DNA from: a virus | IMG/VR virus record: IMGVR_UViG_3300017922_000130 | Location: 1-43,583 of that record | Length of the DNA stretch: 43,583 nucleotides | Direction: 5' to 3' (one strand) | Part shown: one piece after another, positions 18,527 to 27,970 of the stretch | How positions within the stretch are numbered: position 1 is the first letter of the stretch | Layout of the letters: each line of letters begins with the position of its first letter | Position numbers and translations under genes: made by a program | Notes under the pieces: generated by a model | The model's input: the letters and a program-made list of their open reading frames with translations, nothing else | What the model was told of the DNA's origin: nothing | Database searches by the model: none

Positions 18527-19156
18527 TTAAACTTTACTTAAAATTTCAATTTTTCTTTTATATAAATCTAACTTCTCTTTAGCTTTTATAGCTTTTTTCT
18601 GTCTTTCTTCATCTTTATGTTTTTTAAAGACCTCATCCATGCTTCTGACCCCTACATCTGTTTGAGGATAGGCAGGATAAGTTACTGGTGATACATCAAA
18701 AAGCTTTACTTTCTGAAGTTCTCTTACATCCATACCATCTTCAAGTCCCCAGCGGTCCGATTCTACAATAAATCCGAAGGACATTTGGGTAATATCTCCT
18801 CTATCAATAGATACTAAGAGGTCTCTAGCCCACTGGGTATCTGGTGGATGAATGATAACTTTAAGTCCCTTTTCATCTTCCTTAAGCTCTAATGTTCCTG
18901 ATTTATTTCTACCAAGGACATAATCGGGATTATGGTTAAATAGGGCCCTTATATCATCCTTTTCTATTGAATCTTTAAATGCTCCTGGTAGTACTCTTTC
19001 TTTATATGGGAAAAATCCACCTAGTGTTTCACTCCACTCATTAAATACTGCTGCATGACCTTCAATAGTTCTTACTATTTTCTCTTCATCTTCGCTATTA
19101 GGTTTATTTTGGACCCTTAGCTCCGTCATGTTTATAGTCCTTCTCTCCATTTCCAT
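18527..19156 (-). CDS. Prohead maturation protease (HK97 U35)
   Basis: Removes the capsid scaffolding domain. The core RTIEGHAAVFNEWSETLGGF, FKDSIEKDDIRALFNHNPDY (catalytic His in NHN) and DITQMSFGFIVESD (catalytic Ser in MSFGF) is complete. Start is not certain: ATG at 19156 (GGTGG upstream) or ATG at 19129 (GAGAGAAGG upstream); more distal codons encode sequence unlike the family. It overlaps the end of the portal gene by about 50 bp. Confidence 0.92.
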   Translation of the reverse strand: MEMERRTINMTELRVQNKPNSEDEEKIVRTIEGHAAVFNEWSETLGGFFPYKERVLPGAFKDSIEKDDIRALFNHNPDYVLGRNKSGTLELKEDEKGLKVIIHPPDTQWARDLLVSIDRGDITQMSFGFIVESDRWGLEDGMDVRELQKVKLFDVSPVTYPAYPQTDVGVRSMDEVFKKHKDEERQKKAIKAKEKLDLYKRKIEILSKV

Positions 19157-20405
19157 TAGTTTCACCACCTTCCTTAGAATCATTTTTTGTCTTAGCAAAG
19201 GCACCAGCCATGTTAAGGGGAAGCATATTTCCATTAATAAGGTACAAATCTCCACCCTTTTCTTCACTAATTGGATTCATATCCTCTAATTCTCTTATAT
19301 CATTAGCACTATACCAGCCGTTTTGTCTTCCTATAGCGTATCCTTCCATCCTTGTTTTAAAATCTCCCCTTAAAAGTCCATCTATTGTGAACTTTGCAAA
19401 GTACTTTTTCCTCTCACTAGGAGTTAATAAACATTTATTAATAGCCTGTTCCCACCTTACAAGCCAAGGTCTTATGGTATGAACTGCAAATTCTATGGAT
19501 TGGTGCTCTATATTTGAAAAGGTTGCATGTTCTAGGTCTCCAATAAGGTGAGGAGGTACTCTGTATATCCTACATATTTCGTTTATCTGAAATTTTCTTG
19601 TCTGTAGAAACTGGGCATCCTCTGGTGGTATTCCTATTTCATGATATTTCATACCTTCTTCTAGTACAGCTACCTTATGAGAATTTCCTACACCTTTGTA
19701 TACCTCTTCCCATTGTTTTCTAAGCTTTTCAGGGTCTTTTAAAACTCCTGGATGTTCAAGTATTCCTCCTGGTCTTGCTCCATTTCCAAAGAATCTTGCA
19801 CCAAACTCCTCTACTGCCAGTGCTAATCCTACAGCTTCCCTTGCAGCAGATATTGGAGATATGCCTGTTAAGCCATTAAAAGAAAGTCCTGGTATATGAA
19901 ATATTTTCTCTTTAGCGTAAATAATCTGTTTATTATCAATAAAGTATTTATATCTAATTCTTTTAGTTTCTTTATCCCTTTCTACTACCATCTTATCGGG
20001 CTGAAGTGGATAAAGCTCTACTATATTACCTGCTCCATCCCTAACTATTTCAGCATAAGCATTTCCCCATAATAAAAGGTGAGCCATCATTGTTTCCCTA
20101 AAAGAAAAACTGGTCATTTCTTCATTGGGTAAATCGTGAAGAATATAGTAAAGTGGATGGTTTATGGCTTTTTCTTTCCCTTTAGTTTTTCTAATGTATA
20201 AAGGTAGTGGTAAACTTGCTACTGTTTCTGCTATTACTCTTACGCATGCATAAACTGCTGTTGATGTTATAGCATTGTATTCAGATATATTTTTTCCAGA
20301 ACTCGACTCTGTTCCAATATCTTCAGACATAAAAAAAGCCTTGATTTTATCATCAAGACTTAAATTTCTTTTTTCAAATAGTTTTGATATGAAGGGTATT
20401 TTCAA
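19104..20405 (-). CDS. Portal protein (HK97 family)
   Basis: Forms the dodecameric DNA entry ring at one capsid vertex. 433 residues, with YACVRVIAETVASLPLPLY near 52, LLLWGNAYAEIVRD near 112, and FQINEICRIYRVPPHLIGDL near 275, all classic HK97-portal motifs. TTG start with AGGAGGTG five bases upstream. Just upstream the operon is interrupted by the plus-strand toxin and RNA module. Confidence 0.94.
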   Translation of the reverse strand: MKIPFISKLFEKRNLSLDDKIKAFFMSEDIGTESSSGKNISEYNAITSTAVYACVRVIAETVASLPLPLYIRKTKGKEKAINHPLYYILHDLPNEEMTSFSFRETMMAHLLLWGNAYAEIVRDGAGNIVELYPLQPDKMVVERDKETKRIRYKYFIDNKQIIYAKEKIFHIPGLSFNGLTGISPISAAREAVGLALAVEEFGARFFGNGARPGGILEHPGVLKDPEKLRKQWEEVYKGVGNSHKVAVLEEGMKYHEIGIPPEDAQFLQTRKFQINEICRIYRVPPHLIGDLEHATFSNIEHQSIEFAVHTIRPWLVRWEQAINKCLLTPSERKKYFAKFTIDGLLRGDFKTRMEGYAIGRQNGWYSANDIRELEDMNPISEEKGGDLYLINGNMLPLNMAGAFAKTKNDSKEGGETNGNGEKDYKHDGAKGPK

Positions 20406-20481
20406 GGATTCACCTCCTATCTATCAGCTATATACTCTAACCTCAGCCTATTTAATCTAAATTTTCTTTCATTATGTGTCA

Positions 20482-20509
20482 TTGTAATATGTTATTTATA
20501 TGCTATAAT
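20482..20509 (+). promoter_or_regulatory. Promoter of the PemK/MazF-like gene
   Basis: TTGTAA (20482-20487), 16-bp spacer ending TGC, TATAAT (20504-20509), an extended -10 form. About 40 bases lie between the predicted start and the GGGGGA ribosome site. Confidence 0.7.
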
Positions 20510-20553
20510 TATTTTGTTGGGTTTAAATTTATAAAACTACGGGGGACAAAATT

Positions 20554-21114
20554 ATGAACTATAATAATTTAAGAGATATTCAAGATAAAGATAAATCTAC
20601 TCTTAATGCTATGTTTTCTGGTATTATAGATTCTTTAAAGCATGTTTCAATTAATAAAATATCAAATATAATAAGATATATTCCAGATATATGTAGATTA
20701 CACCACCTTTCTTGTGAAAATAGAAAACTGAGAAATTCTCACAAGAAGAAATATCATCCTGTAAAGGTATTTCGTGGAGAGATCTATAATGCTATAATCA
20801 CTGAAGGTGTAGGCAGTGAGTTAAGTGGCAATCACTTAGTAATAATAATGCAAAACAAAAAAGGTAATATCTATGGAGAAAAAGTCAATGTATTACCAAT
20901 TGAAGGTGATGGAACTAGAATAAATCCAAACTACCAAATGAGGCTATCAAATGAACACTTGAAATATGGTTCTTTGGATAAAGATCCTTCACGAATAATT
21001 ATTACTGATATAATGACCCTTGATAAAGCAAGATTAGATAGAAAAATTGGTCAGATTAAACCTGAATATATGTTGAAAATTAGTAAAATGCTCAAGTCTC
21101 AATTAGAGCTTTAA
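20554..21114 (+). CDS. PemK/MazF-fold toxin-like protein with N-terminal extension, no protein antitoxin
   Basis: 186 residues. Residues about 70-186 fit the MazF/PemK endoribonuclease fold: FRGEIYNAIITEGVGSELSG, then HLVIIMQNKKGNIYGEKVNV, then DPSRIIITDIMTLDKARLDR. The RGEIY and GSE elements and the ITDIMTLDKARL segment are retained. The N-terminal 65 residues (basic, with CRLHHLSCENRKLRNSHKKK) are extra. No antitoxin ORF lies up- or downstream. It runs opposite to the head operon between portal and terminase and has its own promoter. Directly downstream are two tandem structured RNAs, so antitoxin function by RNA is an attractive but untested idea. Confidence 0.85.
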   Translation: MNYNNLRDIQDKDKSTLNAMFSGIIDSLKHVSINKISNIIRYIPDICRLHHLSCENRKLRNSHKKKYHPVKVFRGEIYNAIITEGVGSELSGNHLVIIMQNKKGNIYGEKVNVLPIEGDGTRINPNYQMRLSNEHLKYGSLDKDPSRIIITDIMTLDKARLDRKIGQIKPEYMLKISKMLKSQLEL

Positions 21115-21148
21115 ACCTTCTATTATTAGAAGAATTCTAAAATCAGTG

Positions 21149-21177
21149 TTGACATTTTTATTGTTTACACTTATAAT
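21149..21177 (+). promoter_or_regulatory. Full-consensus SigA promoter before the tandem RNAs
   Basis: TTGACA (21149-21154), 17-bp spacer, TATAAT (21172-21177). One of the best matches to the consensus in the window, with no ORF downstream on its strand, so it should drive a non-coding transcript beginning near 21184. Confidence 0.85.
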
Positions 21178-21197
21178 AAAGATATATAATAATTGTT

Positions 21198-21275
21198 TAT
21201 CTAGCCTATAAATTAGGCATTGGCTTACAAAAGCTTTTCTAGAAAAGAGTTGTGATCTTTGTTGCAACTCTTTTC
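21198..21275 (+). ncRNA. Structured RNA unit 1 downstream of the PemK-like toxin
   Basis: Begins TATCTAG, then a hairpin CCTA/TAGG, the conserved block CATTGGCTTA, a hairpin GCTT/AAGC, TTTTCTA, and an 11-bp stem GAAAAGAGTTG/CAACTCTTTTC. There is no start codon between the promoter and the final stem. Unit 2 has the same order with stems of different sequence but kept pairing. T-tract after the last stem is weak (ATTTATTT). Confidence 0.75.
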
Positions 21276-21328
21276 ATTTATTTATCACATATTTATTCGT
21301 AAAATGAATATACTATATTAAGAAAGAC

Positions 21329-21401
21329 TATCTAGTTTAACATTTGTTAAACATTGGCTTAACAAGCTTTTTCTAAGAAAACTCCTTTTTAAGGGGTTTT
21401 C
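21329..21401 (+). ncRNA. Structured RNA unit 2, paralogue of unit 1
   Basis: TATCTAG, hairpin TTTAACA/TGTTAAA (in place of CCTA/TAGG), CATTGGCTTA, hairpin GCTT/AAGC, TTTTCTAA, and a final stem GAAAACTCC/GGGGTTTTC followed by TTTCTTTTT, a good terminator. The matched changes in stems 1 and 3 between units support an RNA structure. No clear second promoter is seen, although TATACT occurs at 21309. Confidence 0.75.
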
Positions 21402-21443
21402 TTTCTTTTTATATATTGATTTCAATTTAATCTAATTTAGCTA

Positions 21444-22988
21444 TTATAAAACCAATATCCCTCTCTCATCATACACAGAATCCTTATTCTCATTCCTTAT
21501 AGCCCTATCAAGTGCCATAATCATAGCCACTGCACCGTCTATTTTCTCTGTGCTTTTTTCTTTATCTGGCTTTATATTTCCTGCTGGGTCAGTTCTAACA
21601 TGTATATTATCCATCATCCACTGTAAAACAGGGTGTCCACCATGGGCTATTTTCTTTTCTAAGGTAAGTTTCATAAGTTCTTTTGTTGGTGGTGACATAT
21701 CTTTATAACCTTGTCCGAAAGGAACTACTGTAAATCCTAATCCTTCTAAATTTTGCACCATCTGTACTGCTCCCCAACGGTCAAAGGCTATTTCTTTAAT
21801 GTTGTACTTAGTACCTAGCTCTTCTATAAATTTTTCAATAAATCCATAGTGTATTACATTACCTTCTGTCGTTTTTAGAAATCCTTGCTGCTCCCATATA
21901 TCATAGGGAACATGATCCCTTCTAACTCTAAGCTTTAAGTTTTCTTCAGGTATCCAAAAATAAGGCAGTACATAATATTTATCATCTCCTAGTATTGGTG
22001 GAAAAACTAATACAAAAGCTGTTATATCAATACTACTTGAAAGGTCAAGTCCACCATAGCATATTCTCCCTTTTAGTTTTTCAGGATTAACTTTGAAAGC
22101 ACCTTTATCCCATACATCCATAGGCATCCAGCGTACTGATTGCTTCACCCACTGGTTAAGTCTTAATTGCCTAAAGATATTTTCTTCTGCTGGATTTTCT
22201 TTTGCGCTTAAAAAGGCGGCTCTTACCTTTTCTATATCAATGGTATGGCCCAGGGATGGATTAGCCTTATACCAGTTCTTTTCATCGGTCCAATCATCAT
22301 TATCATCTATTCCATAAATCACAGGGTAAAAGGTAGGGTCTATCTTTTTTCCTCTTAATATATCTTCGGCTTTTTGATGAACTTCCCAGCAAATAGAATT
22401 TCTATCATTACCTGCGGTTGTTATTAAAAAGAAAAGTGGTTGCTTTCTTGCATCACCACTTCCCTTTGTCATAACATCATAAAGCTGTCTGTTAGGCTGA
22501 GCATGTAGCTCATCGAAGATTACACCATGGACATTGAGTCCATGCTTTGTATAGGCCTCTGCTGATAAAACCTGATAAAAACTAGCTGTCGGCATATACA
22601 CTAATCTCTTTTGTGAAATCACAGGTTTAATTCTCTTTTTAAGTGCTGGACATTGTTCAACCATTTCTACTGCTACATCAAACACAATAGATGCTTGCTG
22701 TCTGTCTGCTGCACATCCATAAACTTCTGCTCCCCACTCCATATCGGCACAAGTAAGGTAAAGAGCTATAGCAGCTGCAAGTTCACTTTTACCATTTTTC
22801 TTTGGAATTTCAATATATGCAGTATTATACTGTCTATACCCATCTTCTTTAACAGTACCAAATATATCTCTTATTATTTTATCCTGCCAAGATAAAAGGT
22901 CAAAAGGCACTCCATGCCATATACCCTTTGTATGTTTTAGATTATTTATAAATTTTACTACCCTTTCTGCTTTTTTTTCATCAAACAT
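21444..22988 (-). CDS. terL: Terminase large subunit (TerL, HK97-type)
   Basis: ATP-driven motor and nuclease that packages DNA through the portal. 514 residues: Walker A-like IPKKNGKSEL (K67, S68), Walker B VIFDELH (D159, E160), and a nuclease half with YGGLDLSSSIDITAFVLVF (first acidic residue of the RNase H-like site) and IAFDRWGAVQ. ATG start overlapping the TerS stop by one base. The family usually makes cohesive ends. Confidence 0.96.
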   Translation of the reverse strand: MFDEKKAERVVKFINNLKHTKGIWHGVPFDLLSWQDKIIRDIFGTVKEDGYRQYNTAYIEIPKKNGKSELAAAIALYLTCADMEWGAEVYGCAADRQQASIVFDVAVEMVEQCPALKKRIKPVISQKRLVYMPTASFYQVLSAEAYTKHGLNVHGVIFDELHAQPNRQLYDVMTKGSGDARKQPLFFLITTAGNDRNSICWEVHQKAEDILRGKKIDPTFYPVIYGIDDNDDWTDEKNWYKANPSLGHTIDIEKVRAAFLSAKENPAEENIFRQLRLNQWVKQSVRWMPMDVWDKGAFKVNPEKLKGRICYGGLDLSSSIDITAFVLVFPPILGDDKYYVLPYFWIPEENLKLRVRRDHVPYDIWEQQGFLKTTEGNVIHYGFIEKFIEELGTKYNIKEIAFDRWGAVQMVQNLEGLGFTVVPFGQGYKDMSPPTKELMKLTLEKKIAHGGHPVLQWMMDNIHVRTDPAGNIKPDKEKSTEKIDGAVAMIMALDRAIRNENKDSVYDERGILVL

Positions 22989-23458
22989 TATTTCACCCTC
23001 AGTAAGCTTTCCATAGGATCATCATTTGTAGATGTTTCAGAATCTATTCTTATTCTTGACCTTGCAGAAGGAGTCAGTCCAAATTCAGAGCAGAAGTCTT
23101 TCATGATTTTAAGATATGTCTGGGCTATGGATACCTGTGGTACCTGCTGAATATATCCTGATGGGGTTTTGAAGATAGTACCATGCTTTGATAAAAACTC
23201 CTCGGCTTCCTTCCACCTTGCATAGGCTTGACAATATCCTGCAAATGCTGCTGCATCTATTTGAGTTAGTACTCCAATTGCTTCTAAAGTTTTAGCCATT
23301 CGCTTCCATTCTTTTTTTGCTTCAGGTTCAAGCCATGACGGACATCTTGGTGCCTTCTTCTCTGGCTTGGGTTCATTATTGTTAAGTGGCCTTTTTCCTG
23401 GATTGCCTTCAAGTACCTTTAGAGCAGTTGGTTTTGGTTTTCTTCCTCGTGTCGCCAT
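22988..23458 (-). CDS. terS: Terminase small subunit (P27 family)
   Basis: Recognises the packaging site and recruits TerL. 156 residues: TRGRKPKPTALKVLEGNPGK at the N-terminus followed by RPLN, then APRCPSWLEPEAKKEWKRMA and AAFAGYCQAYARWKEAEEFL are the P27 signature. ATG after GGAGGTGATACC. P27 TerS with HK97 TerL and an HNH protein is a common cos-packaging set. Confidence 0.95.
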   Translation of the reverse strand: MATRGRKPKPTALKVLEGNPGKRPLNNNEPKPEKKAPRCPSWLEPEAKKEWKRMAKTLEAIGVLTQIDAAAFAGYCQAYARWKEAEEFLSKHGTIFKTPSGYIQQVPQVSIAQTYLKIMKDFCSEFGLTPSARSRIRIDSETSTNDDPMESLLRVK

Positions 23459-25939: not shown

Positions 25940-27196
25940 TTATTTTGTTATATTGATATTTCTGTAAGCTATTTTTTCTCCATCTCTTATTAGAAAAACT
26001 TCTTCATCAGCTCCAACATACTCGATATATCTTTTAACAATAACATCCACATACTTTTCGTCCAGCTCTACTCCGTAGCATATTCTTCCTGTCTGCTGAC
26101 AGGCTATAAGAGTAGACCCACTTCCTGCAAAAGGTTCTAGGACTATACAGTTTGTCATGGTGCTGTTCTGAATAGGATAGGCTACAAGAGGCACTGGCTT
26201 CATAGTAGGATGGTCAGGACTTTTTGTAGGCCTATCAAAGTTCCAAATGGTCGTTTGCTTTCTATCTGAATACCAGCGGTGCTTTCCTGTTGGCTTCCAG
26301 CCATAGAGAATAGGTTCATGCTGCCACTGATAATCACTTCTACCAAGGACTAAGGAATTTTTAACCCATATACACACATTTGCAAGATGAAATCCCGCAT
26401 CCTTAAAAGCTTTTCTAAAGTTAAGTCCCTCTGTATCAGCATGAAATACATAAACTGCTGCTCCATCATCAAGAACAGTAAATATGTTTTTAAAAGCTGC
26501 TAAAAGAAATTCATAAAAGTTTTTATCTTCCATGTTATCGTTTTTTATCTTTCTTTCATTTTCTCTTCCGGCTGTATAGTTCACATTATACGGTGGATCG
26601 GTCACGCACAGATTGGCCTTCTTATCTTCCATCAAGGCTGCATAGGTTTCTGCTTTAGTACTGTCCCCACAGATAAGTCTATGTTTTCCAAGTATCCATA
26701 TATCACCATGCTTTGATATTGGTTCTTCAATTTCTTCTATAGCCTTTTCTTCATCAAATCCATCATCTTTAACATCCTTATCATGGACCTTTGAAAATAA
26801 ATCCTCAATTTCAGCAGCATCAAAACCTGTAAGGGATATATCAAACATTGATTCATCCAATTCACTAATCAAATCAGCAAGTTTTGGTAAATCCCACTCA
26901 CCATTAACTTTATTTAAAGCAACATTAAGTGCCTTTTCTTCATCTTCAGGCATATCAACAATAACACACTCTATTTCTTTGGCTCCTTGAGCTTTTAAAA
27001 TTTTATATCTCTGGTGACCTCCTACTATATGGCCTGTTCTTTTGTTCCAAATCACTGGTTCTACATATCCAAAGGTTTCTATAGACCTTTTGAGTTTTTC
27101 ATATTCTGGGTCACTAGGTTTTAAATCCTTTCTTGGATTATATTTAGCAGGATTTAGTTTTTCTACTGACACTTTTTGTATATCCAATTTCCTCAC
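25940..27196 (-). CDS. ParB-like / DNA methyltransferase fusion (adenine or N4-cytosine, beta-type)
   Basis: 418 residues. N-terminal ParB-like nuclease domain (about 5-100: NPRKDLKPSDPEYEKLKRSI and GHIVGGHQRYKIL) joined to an amino-methyltransferase. The catalytic DPPY is at 200-203 and the AdoMet-binding FAGSG at 356-360, so motif IV precedes motif I (beta order). No restriction partner is visible, so it probably protects phage DNA from host restriction or acts in packaging-site recognition. Start is GTG at 27194-27196; a TTG three codons later has a better-placed AGGTGAGG. It diverges from the AbrB/RelE pair. Confidence 0.93.
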   Translation of the reverse strand: MRKLDIQKVSVEKLNPAKYNPRKDLKPSDPEYEKLKRSIETFGYVEPVIWNKRTGHIVGGHQRYKILKAQGAKEIECVIVDMPEDEEKALNVALNKVNGEWDLPKLADLISELDESMFDISLTGFDAAEIEDLFSKVHDKDVKDDGFDEEKAIEEIEEPISKHGDIWILGKHRLICGDSTKAETYAALMEDKKANLCVTDPPYNVNYTAGRENERKIKNDNMEDKNFYEFLLAAFKNIFTVLDDGAAVYVFHADTEGLNFRKAFKDAGFHLANVCIWVKNSLVLGRSDYQWQHEPILYGWKPTGKHRWYSDRKQTTIWNFDRPTKSPDHPTMKPVPLVAYPIQNSTMTNCIVLEPFAGSGSTLIACQQTGRICYGVELDEKYVDVIVKRYIEYVGADEEVFLIRDGEKIAYRNINITK

Positions 27197-27209: not shown

Positions 27210-27238
27210 TTGAGTTTTCTTTGTTTCTTTGTTATAAT
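27210..27238 (+). promoter_or_regulatory. Promoter of the AbrB/RelE pair, followed by AAAGATACA repeats
   Basis: TTGAGT (27210-27215), 17-bp spacer, TATAAT (27233-27238). Downstream of the start site AAAGATAC is repeated in tandem (27246-27261), a plausible operator for autorepression by the AbrB-type protein. Confidence 0.7.
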
Positions 27239-27308
27239 ATTTTTAAAGATACAAAGATACAGGTATTTTTTAACCAATTGTGCATATACTATAAAGGAGG
27301 TGGAATCT

Positions 27309-27677
27309 ATGCCTACAAATATTATGGAGCGTGATATTATGGATCGTAAGGTAATTAGCGTTTCAAAGAAGCGTCAAATTACGATACCTTTACAATTTTA
27401 TAAACATCTTAACATTAAAAGTGAAGTTGAATGCTCACTTGAAGATGGTGCCATTGTAATTCGACCTTTTCACAGGGAACCTAGTGAGTTTTCCGTTGAG
27501 ATACTCAAAGACTTGGTTTCTCAAGGATATTCGGGTGATGAACTAATAAAACGTTTTGAAGCAGCAAGTAAAAATATTAAAAAGGCCATTGCCAATATGC
27601 TTGAAGAAGCAGATGCAATTGCAGCCGGTGAAAAATCTGCAGCAAATTTTGATGATATTTTTGGTTCGGAGGACTGA
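27309..27677 (+). CDS. AbrB/SpoVT-type antitoxin
   Basis: 122 residues. The swapped-hairpin AbrB domain spans about 12-50: KVISVSKKRQITIPLQFYKH, then LEDGAIVIRP. The acidic C-terminal half (VEILKDLVSQGYSGDELIKR; ends FDDIFGSED) is the kind of tail that binds and neutralises a RelE-type partner. ATG at 27309 with AAAGGAGGTGG is chosen over upstream codons in the same frame that precede the ribosome site. Two bases separate it from the toxin gene. Confidence 0.88.
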   Translation: MPTNIMERDIMDRKVISVSKKRQITIPLQFYKHLNIKSEVECSLEDGAIVIRPFHREPSEFSVEILKDLVSQGYSGDELIKRFEAASKNIKKAIANMLEEADAIAAGEKSAANFDDIFGSED

Positions 27678-27679
27678 TT

Positions 27680-27970
27680 ATGTATGAAATATTATTCAGC
27701 CCAGCTGCTGAACGATTTTTTAAAAAACTAAAAGAAAAACCTTTAAAAGAAGCCTATAAAACAGCTTTACTAAAATTAAGAGAAAACCCTTATATAGGTC
27801 AACCAAAACGTGGTGATTTAGCTGGTATTTATGGATTCGACGTAAAGTATAAAGGTATAAATTATGAAATTGCCTACACCATCAGCGAAGTCAATGGAAA
27901 AAAAATCATCGTACTTCTTGCTGGAACTCGTGAAAATTTTTATGAACAACTAAAACGGTATATTAAATAG
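27680..27970 (+). CDS. RelE/ParE-superfamily toxin
   Basis: 96 residues of the RelE fold: ILFSPAAERFFKKLKEKPLK, LRENPYIGQPKRGDLAGIYG, then YKGINYEIAYTISEVNGKKI and a terminal AGTRENFYEQLKRYIK. Basic surface and length agree with ribosome-dependent mRNA interferases (RelE/YoeB-like) or ParE gyrase poisons; which cannot be told. Translated right after its antitoxin; a strong terminator follows. Confidence 0.9.
   Translation: MYEILFSPAAERFFKKLKEKPLKEAYKTALLKLRENPYIGQPKRGDLAGIYGFDVKYKGINYEIAYTISEVNGKKIIVLLAGTRENFYEQLKRYIK

Follow-up and report, generated by a model that had tools for sequence, protein, structure and literature searches.

A PemK/MazF-fold toxin gene in a putative prophage with two downstream structured RNAs as its probable antidote

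The viral DNA analysed here (IMG/VR record IMGVR_UViG_3300017922_000130, positions 1 to 43,583; this whole stretch of 43,583 nucleotides is referred to below as the window) carries a gene for a PemK/MazF-fold toxin followed by two short structured RNAs, and we judge it probable, at roughly 70%, that together they form an RNA-neutralised, type III-like system in which the two downstream RNAs are the antidote. An RNA-neutralised MazF-type toxin with its RNA downstream and separately promoted had been proposed for this locus in an earlier note, made from the sequence. The arrangement is upheld by the homologues, by covariation and by the MazF fold of the protein; it is the antitoxin step that we infer, together with transcription, toxicity, RNA–protein binding, neutralisation and biological role. 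That step is backed by the association of toxin with RNA, by copies of the RNA in trans in the prophages of toxin-bearing hosts, and by the lack of antisense complementarity. Since no protein antidote adjoins the toxin gene, and since the layout is kept in many bacteria, the RNAs are probably the antidote.

The locus would then represent a two-part toxin-antitoxin module, probably serving in anti-phage defence or in addiction, and sitting as a moron in the gap between terminase and portal. Its protein component would be an endoribonuclease of the PemK/MazF fold, extended at the N-terminus by helices, and its antidote a pair of short RNAs, each with its own terminator and both made from a strong promoter of their own, which would bind to the toxin and obstruct its active site in the way that ToxI acts on ToxN. 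While the RNA is abundant, the toxin would be inert; if transcription stopped or the RNA were lost, through takeover by a competing phage or loss of the element, the toxin would cut RNA. Because the RNA lies downstream, and not upstream on the toxin's promoter, an excess of antitoxin would have to come from promoter strength.

The toxin gene and its setting

The gene content of the window reads as that of a prophage, and on Pfam annotation it includes a portal gene (19104-20405, minus strand), the genes for the large and small terminase subunits (21444-22988 and 22988-23458, minus strand) and a prohead protease gene. A single ORF of the PemK family (20554-21114, plus strand) separates the portal gene from the terminase genes and runs on the strand opposite to both. 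It is preceded by a promoter-like site found in a consensus scan (TTGTAA-16-TATAAT, with TG before the -10 element; 20482-20509, plus strand) and, 7 nt before the ATG, by the RBS-like sequence GGGGGA, which was read directly (20541-20546, plus strand). No terminator-like site was found upstream of the toxin gene from position 20400 on.

The terminase-portal gap (20406-21443 in the window) can be as short as a few bases or as long as about 3900 in some 80 related phages (L025-L104). The small genes that occupy it differ from phage to phage and for the most part share the strand of the terminase genes; they comprise regulators, Abi-like or unknown genes and, in L039, one other PemK, and the gap reads as a moron or defence hotspot. 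Elsewhere in the window, an ORF of 155 aa that matches no Pfam family (27210-27677, plus strand) precedes the gene for a ParE-like toxin (27680-27970, plus strand; PF15781, E 4.9e-22), a second toxin-antitoxin candidate in the record, and on the minus strand at 25940-27196 a ParB_N domain is fused to an N6/N4 DNA methylase.

The description of the ORF as PemK-like is sound. Its 186-aa product matches PF02452 (PemK_toxin, E 1.9e-14) over residues 74-183 only; this is the sole Pfam match at E ≤ 0.001, with none to the ToxN, CptN or TenpN sequence families at that threshold. Residues 1-70 lie outside the PemK domain, and residues 4-62 make up two extra N-terminal helices, which in an AlphaFold2 model (pLDDT 80.9) are followed by a MazF barrel. 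The best Foldseek match to this model is 4mzp (E 7.7e-10), and 1ne8 and 4mdx are also matched at E ~1e-9; these are MazF proteins of S. aureus and B. subtilis, with a TM score of 0.87 by target. As modelled, the toxin has the MazF fold, an assignment with which Pfam and the orthologs described below agree. The catalytic Arg of MazF aligns with His94, which is invariant across the window-subfamily alignment (the start of the L313 protein in it was guessed, and this protein was used solely for querying and for listing conserved columns). With the catalytic Arg replaced by His throughout the subfamily, RNase activity of the window toxin is not assured.

The absence of an antitoxin ORF beside the toxin gene is also borne out, in that no same-strand small ORF adjoins its upstream side. 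No protein antitoxin is linked to the gene in the window, and none was recognised in relatives. Small adjacent upstream ORFs occur at 86 of 136 canonical MazF loci, compared with four of the 11 loci of the window subfamily and one of 21 clostridial loci. Those at the four window-subfamily loci comprise a 41-codon ORF in L313 and three with a MazG-like look. In L339, L340 and L341 the toxin ORF is preceded, with a spacing of about 3 nt, by an ORF of 124-138 aa containing KLVRD.IPE; judged by eye the latter encodes a MazG-like NTP pyrophosphohydrolase, in a setting reminiscent of the mazEFG operon.

The twin RNA units and their conservation

The full-consensus promoter claimed 3' of the toxin gene is exact: TTGACA-17-TATAAT at 21149-21177 (plus strand) agrees with the consensus at 12 of 12 bases, and is the sole such site in the 43.6 kb window. 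Beyond it, in a region overlapped by no ORF of more than 54 aa, both of the proposed paralogous non-coding units are present, and their folds are more stable than those of all 200 dinucleotide shuffles. Unit 1 (21198-21275, plus strand; fold z -5.0) consists of a TATCTA box, hairpin 1 (GCCTA/TAGGC, 21204-21218), the linker ATTG, hairpin 2 (GCTT/AAGC, 21223-21234), the U-run TTTTCTAG and a terminator (21242-21275). Unit 2 (21329-21403, plus strand; fold z -4.9) has the same layout, with hairpin 1 formed by GTTTAAC/GTTAAAC (21335-21352), hairpin 2 again by GCTT/AAGC (21357-21367), and its own terminator at 21375-21403; the two units are 74% identical over a 34-nt core. The contention that hairpin 1 differs in sequence between the units while its pairing is kept is confirmed, with the arms refined as given here, and the 'final stem' of each unit, present as described, is identified as an intrinsic terminator (two found, against 0.2 expected). 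A consensus promoter and terminators of their own indicate that the units would be free RNAs, and not untranslated regions of the toxin mRNA. The window units have no match in Rfam, and RF03085 is absent from positions 20000-22200.

The first relative to be found was a plasmid-borne toxin of Paraclostridium sordellii, 37% identical over the best segment, the gene for which is followed by TATTTAG, a hairpin, a linker, a hairpin, a U-run and a terminator, twice over. Genome searches added L313 (63% identical to the P. sordellii toxin), L314 and L338-L345. Over the full length, the window toxin shares 45-51% identity with the toxins of L342-L345, and seven relatives are more distant. All 11 subfamily relatives have two units downstream, with covarying stems, so the RNA is kept beside homologous toxins, and the proposed arrangement withstands this check, which the earlier note had named as able to refute it; the sole exception to the layout among them is the second unit of L313, which is without hairpin 2. 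Promoter-like sites before unit 1 also occur in relatives, L024, L313 and L314 among them. Over the 280 nt 3' of the toxin gene the median fold z is -6.7 for the subfamily and -2.3 for 136 canonical MazF genes (Mann-Whitney p 5e-8), these z values being rough at 20 shuffles each. On an ungapped self-repeat statistic the window subfamily could not be separated from controls (window z 3.4), whereas the clostridial clade could. No relatives came from scanning IMG/VR at the protein level, whether P0001 was the only query or was paired with the Paraclostridium protein, nor from scanning genome contigs with that pair, and a broader protein alignment used as query returned mostly ordinary MazF. Scanning IMG/VR with an exact RNA core pattern gave 22 matches, none with the layout; a search of phage DNA gave no match, and a search of plasmid DNA with the RNA region gave chance matches only.

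Given that the hairpin arms were picked by hand, 100% pairing is uninformative and only changes on both sides of a stem count. As MAFFT misplaces the 5' arms, the stems were counted on a hand alignment, and a covariance model was built from five ortholog units. The nine units of the window and its orthologs hold nine both-side changes in hairpin 1 and six in hairpin 2. Across 18 subfamily units, which are related in sequence and have their arms assigned by hand, the counts rise to 39 and 36, and none of 2000 shuffles scored as high; one of these units, L340_1, was entered with a surplus base in its unpaired 5' box, its stem arms being correct. The covariance model (R2) contains no window sequence, and was searched against the full window with filters off. 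In the resulting ranking unit 1 comes first in the window (24.3 bits, E 0.0079), and unit 2, with a weak score, comes third (15.7 bits, E 0.57). The model also recovers, at E ~1e-6, the first unit of L342 and that of L343, both of which had been held out.

These results can be set against the proposal that the gene is a decayed type II PemK, and that its 'units' are two terminators with chance hairpins. An intrinsic terminator does end each unit, and the presence of His in place of the catalytic Arg would suit a decaying enzyme. However, orthologs that are only about 50% identical retain an intact ORF, both units and compensatory changes, the independent model recovers the units, and the structure is absent from canonical MazF loci. 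Decay is largely contradicted by this conservation in orthologs, and we consider it very improbable.

Comparison with known toxin-antitoxin systems

In the type III systems ToxIN/AbiQ, CptIN and TenpIN, tandem RNA repeats lie upstream of the toxin gene, under one promoter and with a terminator between, and this placement of the RNA on the shared promoter provides an excess of antitoxin (PMC5086642). The window locus resembles them in having a toxin of the MazF/Kid fold, no protein antitoxin and an adjoining small structured RNA, and in carriage by phage, plasmid and chromosome. It differs in that the RNA follows the toxin gene, has a promoter to itself, and consists of two divergent units each with a terminator; also, the toxin matches Pfam PemK and not ToxN. 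In gene order, promoter and toxin sequence it would thus be a system that works in type III-like fashion but stands outside the described families. In a survey of candidate structured RNAs from human microbiomes, the RNAs linked to ToxN were likewise reported to lie immediately upstream of the toxin (PMC8040213).

A further point of comparison is AbiF-RCd22 from prophages of Clostridioides difficile, in which the toxin is neutralised, in cis and in trans, by an RNA that contains a hairpin motif twice (PMC12373285). Both systems combine a prophage-borne toxin with an RNA of two motif copies, neutralisation being presumed for the window locus. AbiF, however, has been tied to the origin of Cas13 (PMC12373285), not to MazF, and its RNA lies upstream and belongs to RF03085, which matches nothing at the window locus. 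With type II MazEF, PemIK and NdoA the window toxin shares its domain family and fold, but it is accompanied by RNA and by no MazE/PemI-type gene, has extra N-terminal helices, and carries His for the catalytic Arg. No PemK-RNA system was found in the open-access literature, nor was an Rfam family found for one. If the proposed system is real, RNA antidotes would reach beyond AbiF and the ToxN-like families with their upstream repeats, and the order of RNA before toxin would be unnecessary for balance. Many 'orphan' PemK/MazF toxins in Clostridia that are now called type II would then be RNA-controlled.

A small RNA adjoining a toxin gene is also what would be seen in a type I system, with the RNAs as antisense repressors of toxin mRNA, and type I systems are known from clostridial prophages (PMC7699646). 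Antisense pairing was tried and rejected: the energies of duplexes between unit and toxin mRNA were no better than those of shuffled units in six window-type cases and in two other clades. The toxin, moreover, is a MazF-fold protein of 186 aa and not a small hydrophobic peptide, and we give this explanation hardly any credence.

A parallel clostridial clade and copies of its RNA in prophages

Among the matches listed, N-extended PemK proteins of this kind, 199-224 codons long and forming a more distant clade, occur in 21 of 207 Clostridiaceae genomes. Downstream of all 21 toxin genes lie two units that read ACATACCTAG-N6-CTAGGAGATTATATNNCATA, some 46-80 nt apart, and at one locus the pair of units is duplicated; unit 2 is often without the preceding U of UACAU. 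Each of the five stem pairs of this RNA shows both-side changes, which alone are informative, the units having been chosen with a pairing filter; the 21 Clostridiaceae are phylogenetically non-independent. A covariance model of the clostridial units (R1) matches exactly these 21 genomes and has no match in the remaining 186, again among the matches listed; as R1 was trained on these units, it is their absence elsewhere and the extra copies described below that are informative. The units have no match in Rfam. That the window and clostridial RNAs might be one family was considered and rejected, for R1 finds no window units above noise, and despite their like layout they are different RNA families.

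R1 additionally detected six further single copies away from the toxin, all in toxin-bearing genomes: two in L301 (981-1017 and 1986-2022) and one each in L302 (1366-1403), L303 (1394-1430), L304 (minus strand) and L305 (1423-1459). Five of the six lie in prophage late regions, in three genomes that are probably related, directly behind a terminator and ahead of an ORF, with late-type genes downstream and phrog_36 regulators, an HNH nuclease or a DNA methyltransferase nearby. Their stems covary (ACTTAG/CTAAG, ACTTAA/TTAAG and ACCTAG/CTAGG). Confinement of the extra copies to toxin-bearing genomes fits a trans-acting antidote that has been copied by phages, and those in prophages may be decoy antidotes borne by the phage; phages that escape ToxIN are known to gain pseudo-ToxI copies (PMC5086642). 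Clostridial prophages with lone copies of the RNA would, on the antidote reading, be cases from nature of phages using decoys against a system of this type.

The RNAs might alternatively be substrates or sensors, bound or cut at their hairpins by PemK as a means of controlling its own locus or of sensing RNA turnover, with the toxin itself restrained by a protein or a chromosomal factor. UACAU is the cleavage site of B. subtilis-type MazF, and clostridial unit 1 usually has the preceding U that gives UACAU; the copies at the 5' ends of prophage late genes, too, are placed where a processing site could act. Set against this, the separate consensus promoter and the units' own terminators speak for free RNAs, and a cleavage target in late transcripts would be costly to phages, so that a role as substrate or sensor appears unlikely. 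Equally, the twin RNAs could activate or guide the nuclease without inhibiting it. The tight one-to-one linkage between toxin clade and RNA family would accord with such an RNA-dependent effector, as would stems that vary within a constant layout, but the units have no variable segment to act as guide, their layout is like that of known inhibitor RNAs, and the extra prophage copies are better explained by an antidote; we regard activation or guidance as distinctly improbable.

To return to the antidote reading, it may extend to N-extended PemK proteins as a class, in which a protein antitoxin would have been traded for twin downstream RNAs of at least three unrelated, clade-matched families, with phages bearing single decoy copies in late transcripts; we see the chances for and against this generalisation as evenly balanced. 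If the antidote reading holds, the MazF fold would have acquired RNA antidotes more than once. Inspection by eye of other clades revealed the succession GATTATGTGAGAGA-hairpin-CAGTGAATTATGTG-terminator, twice, in L297, and units of the TACAAAG type, also twice, in L299, L310 and L039; L295 showed no clear layout. In L292 an N-extended PemK is followed on its 3' side by tandem short repeats resembling ATAAAGAATAAT, again judged by eye, and these look closer to classical ToxI repeats than to twin units.
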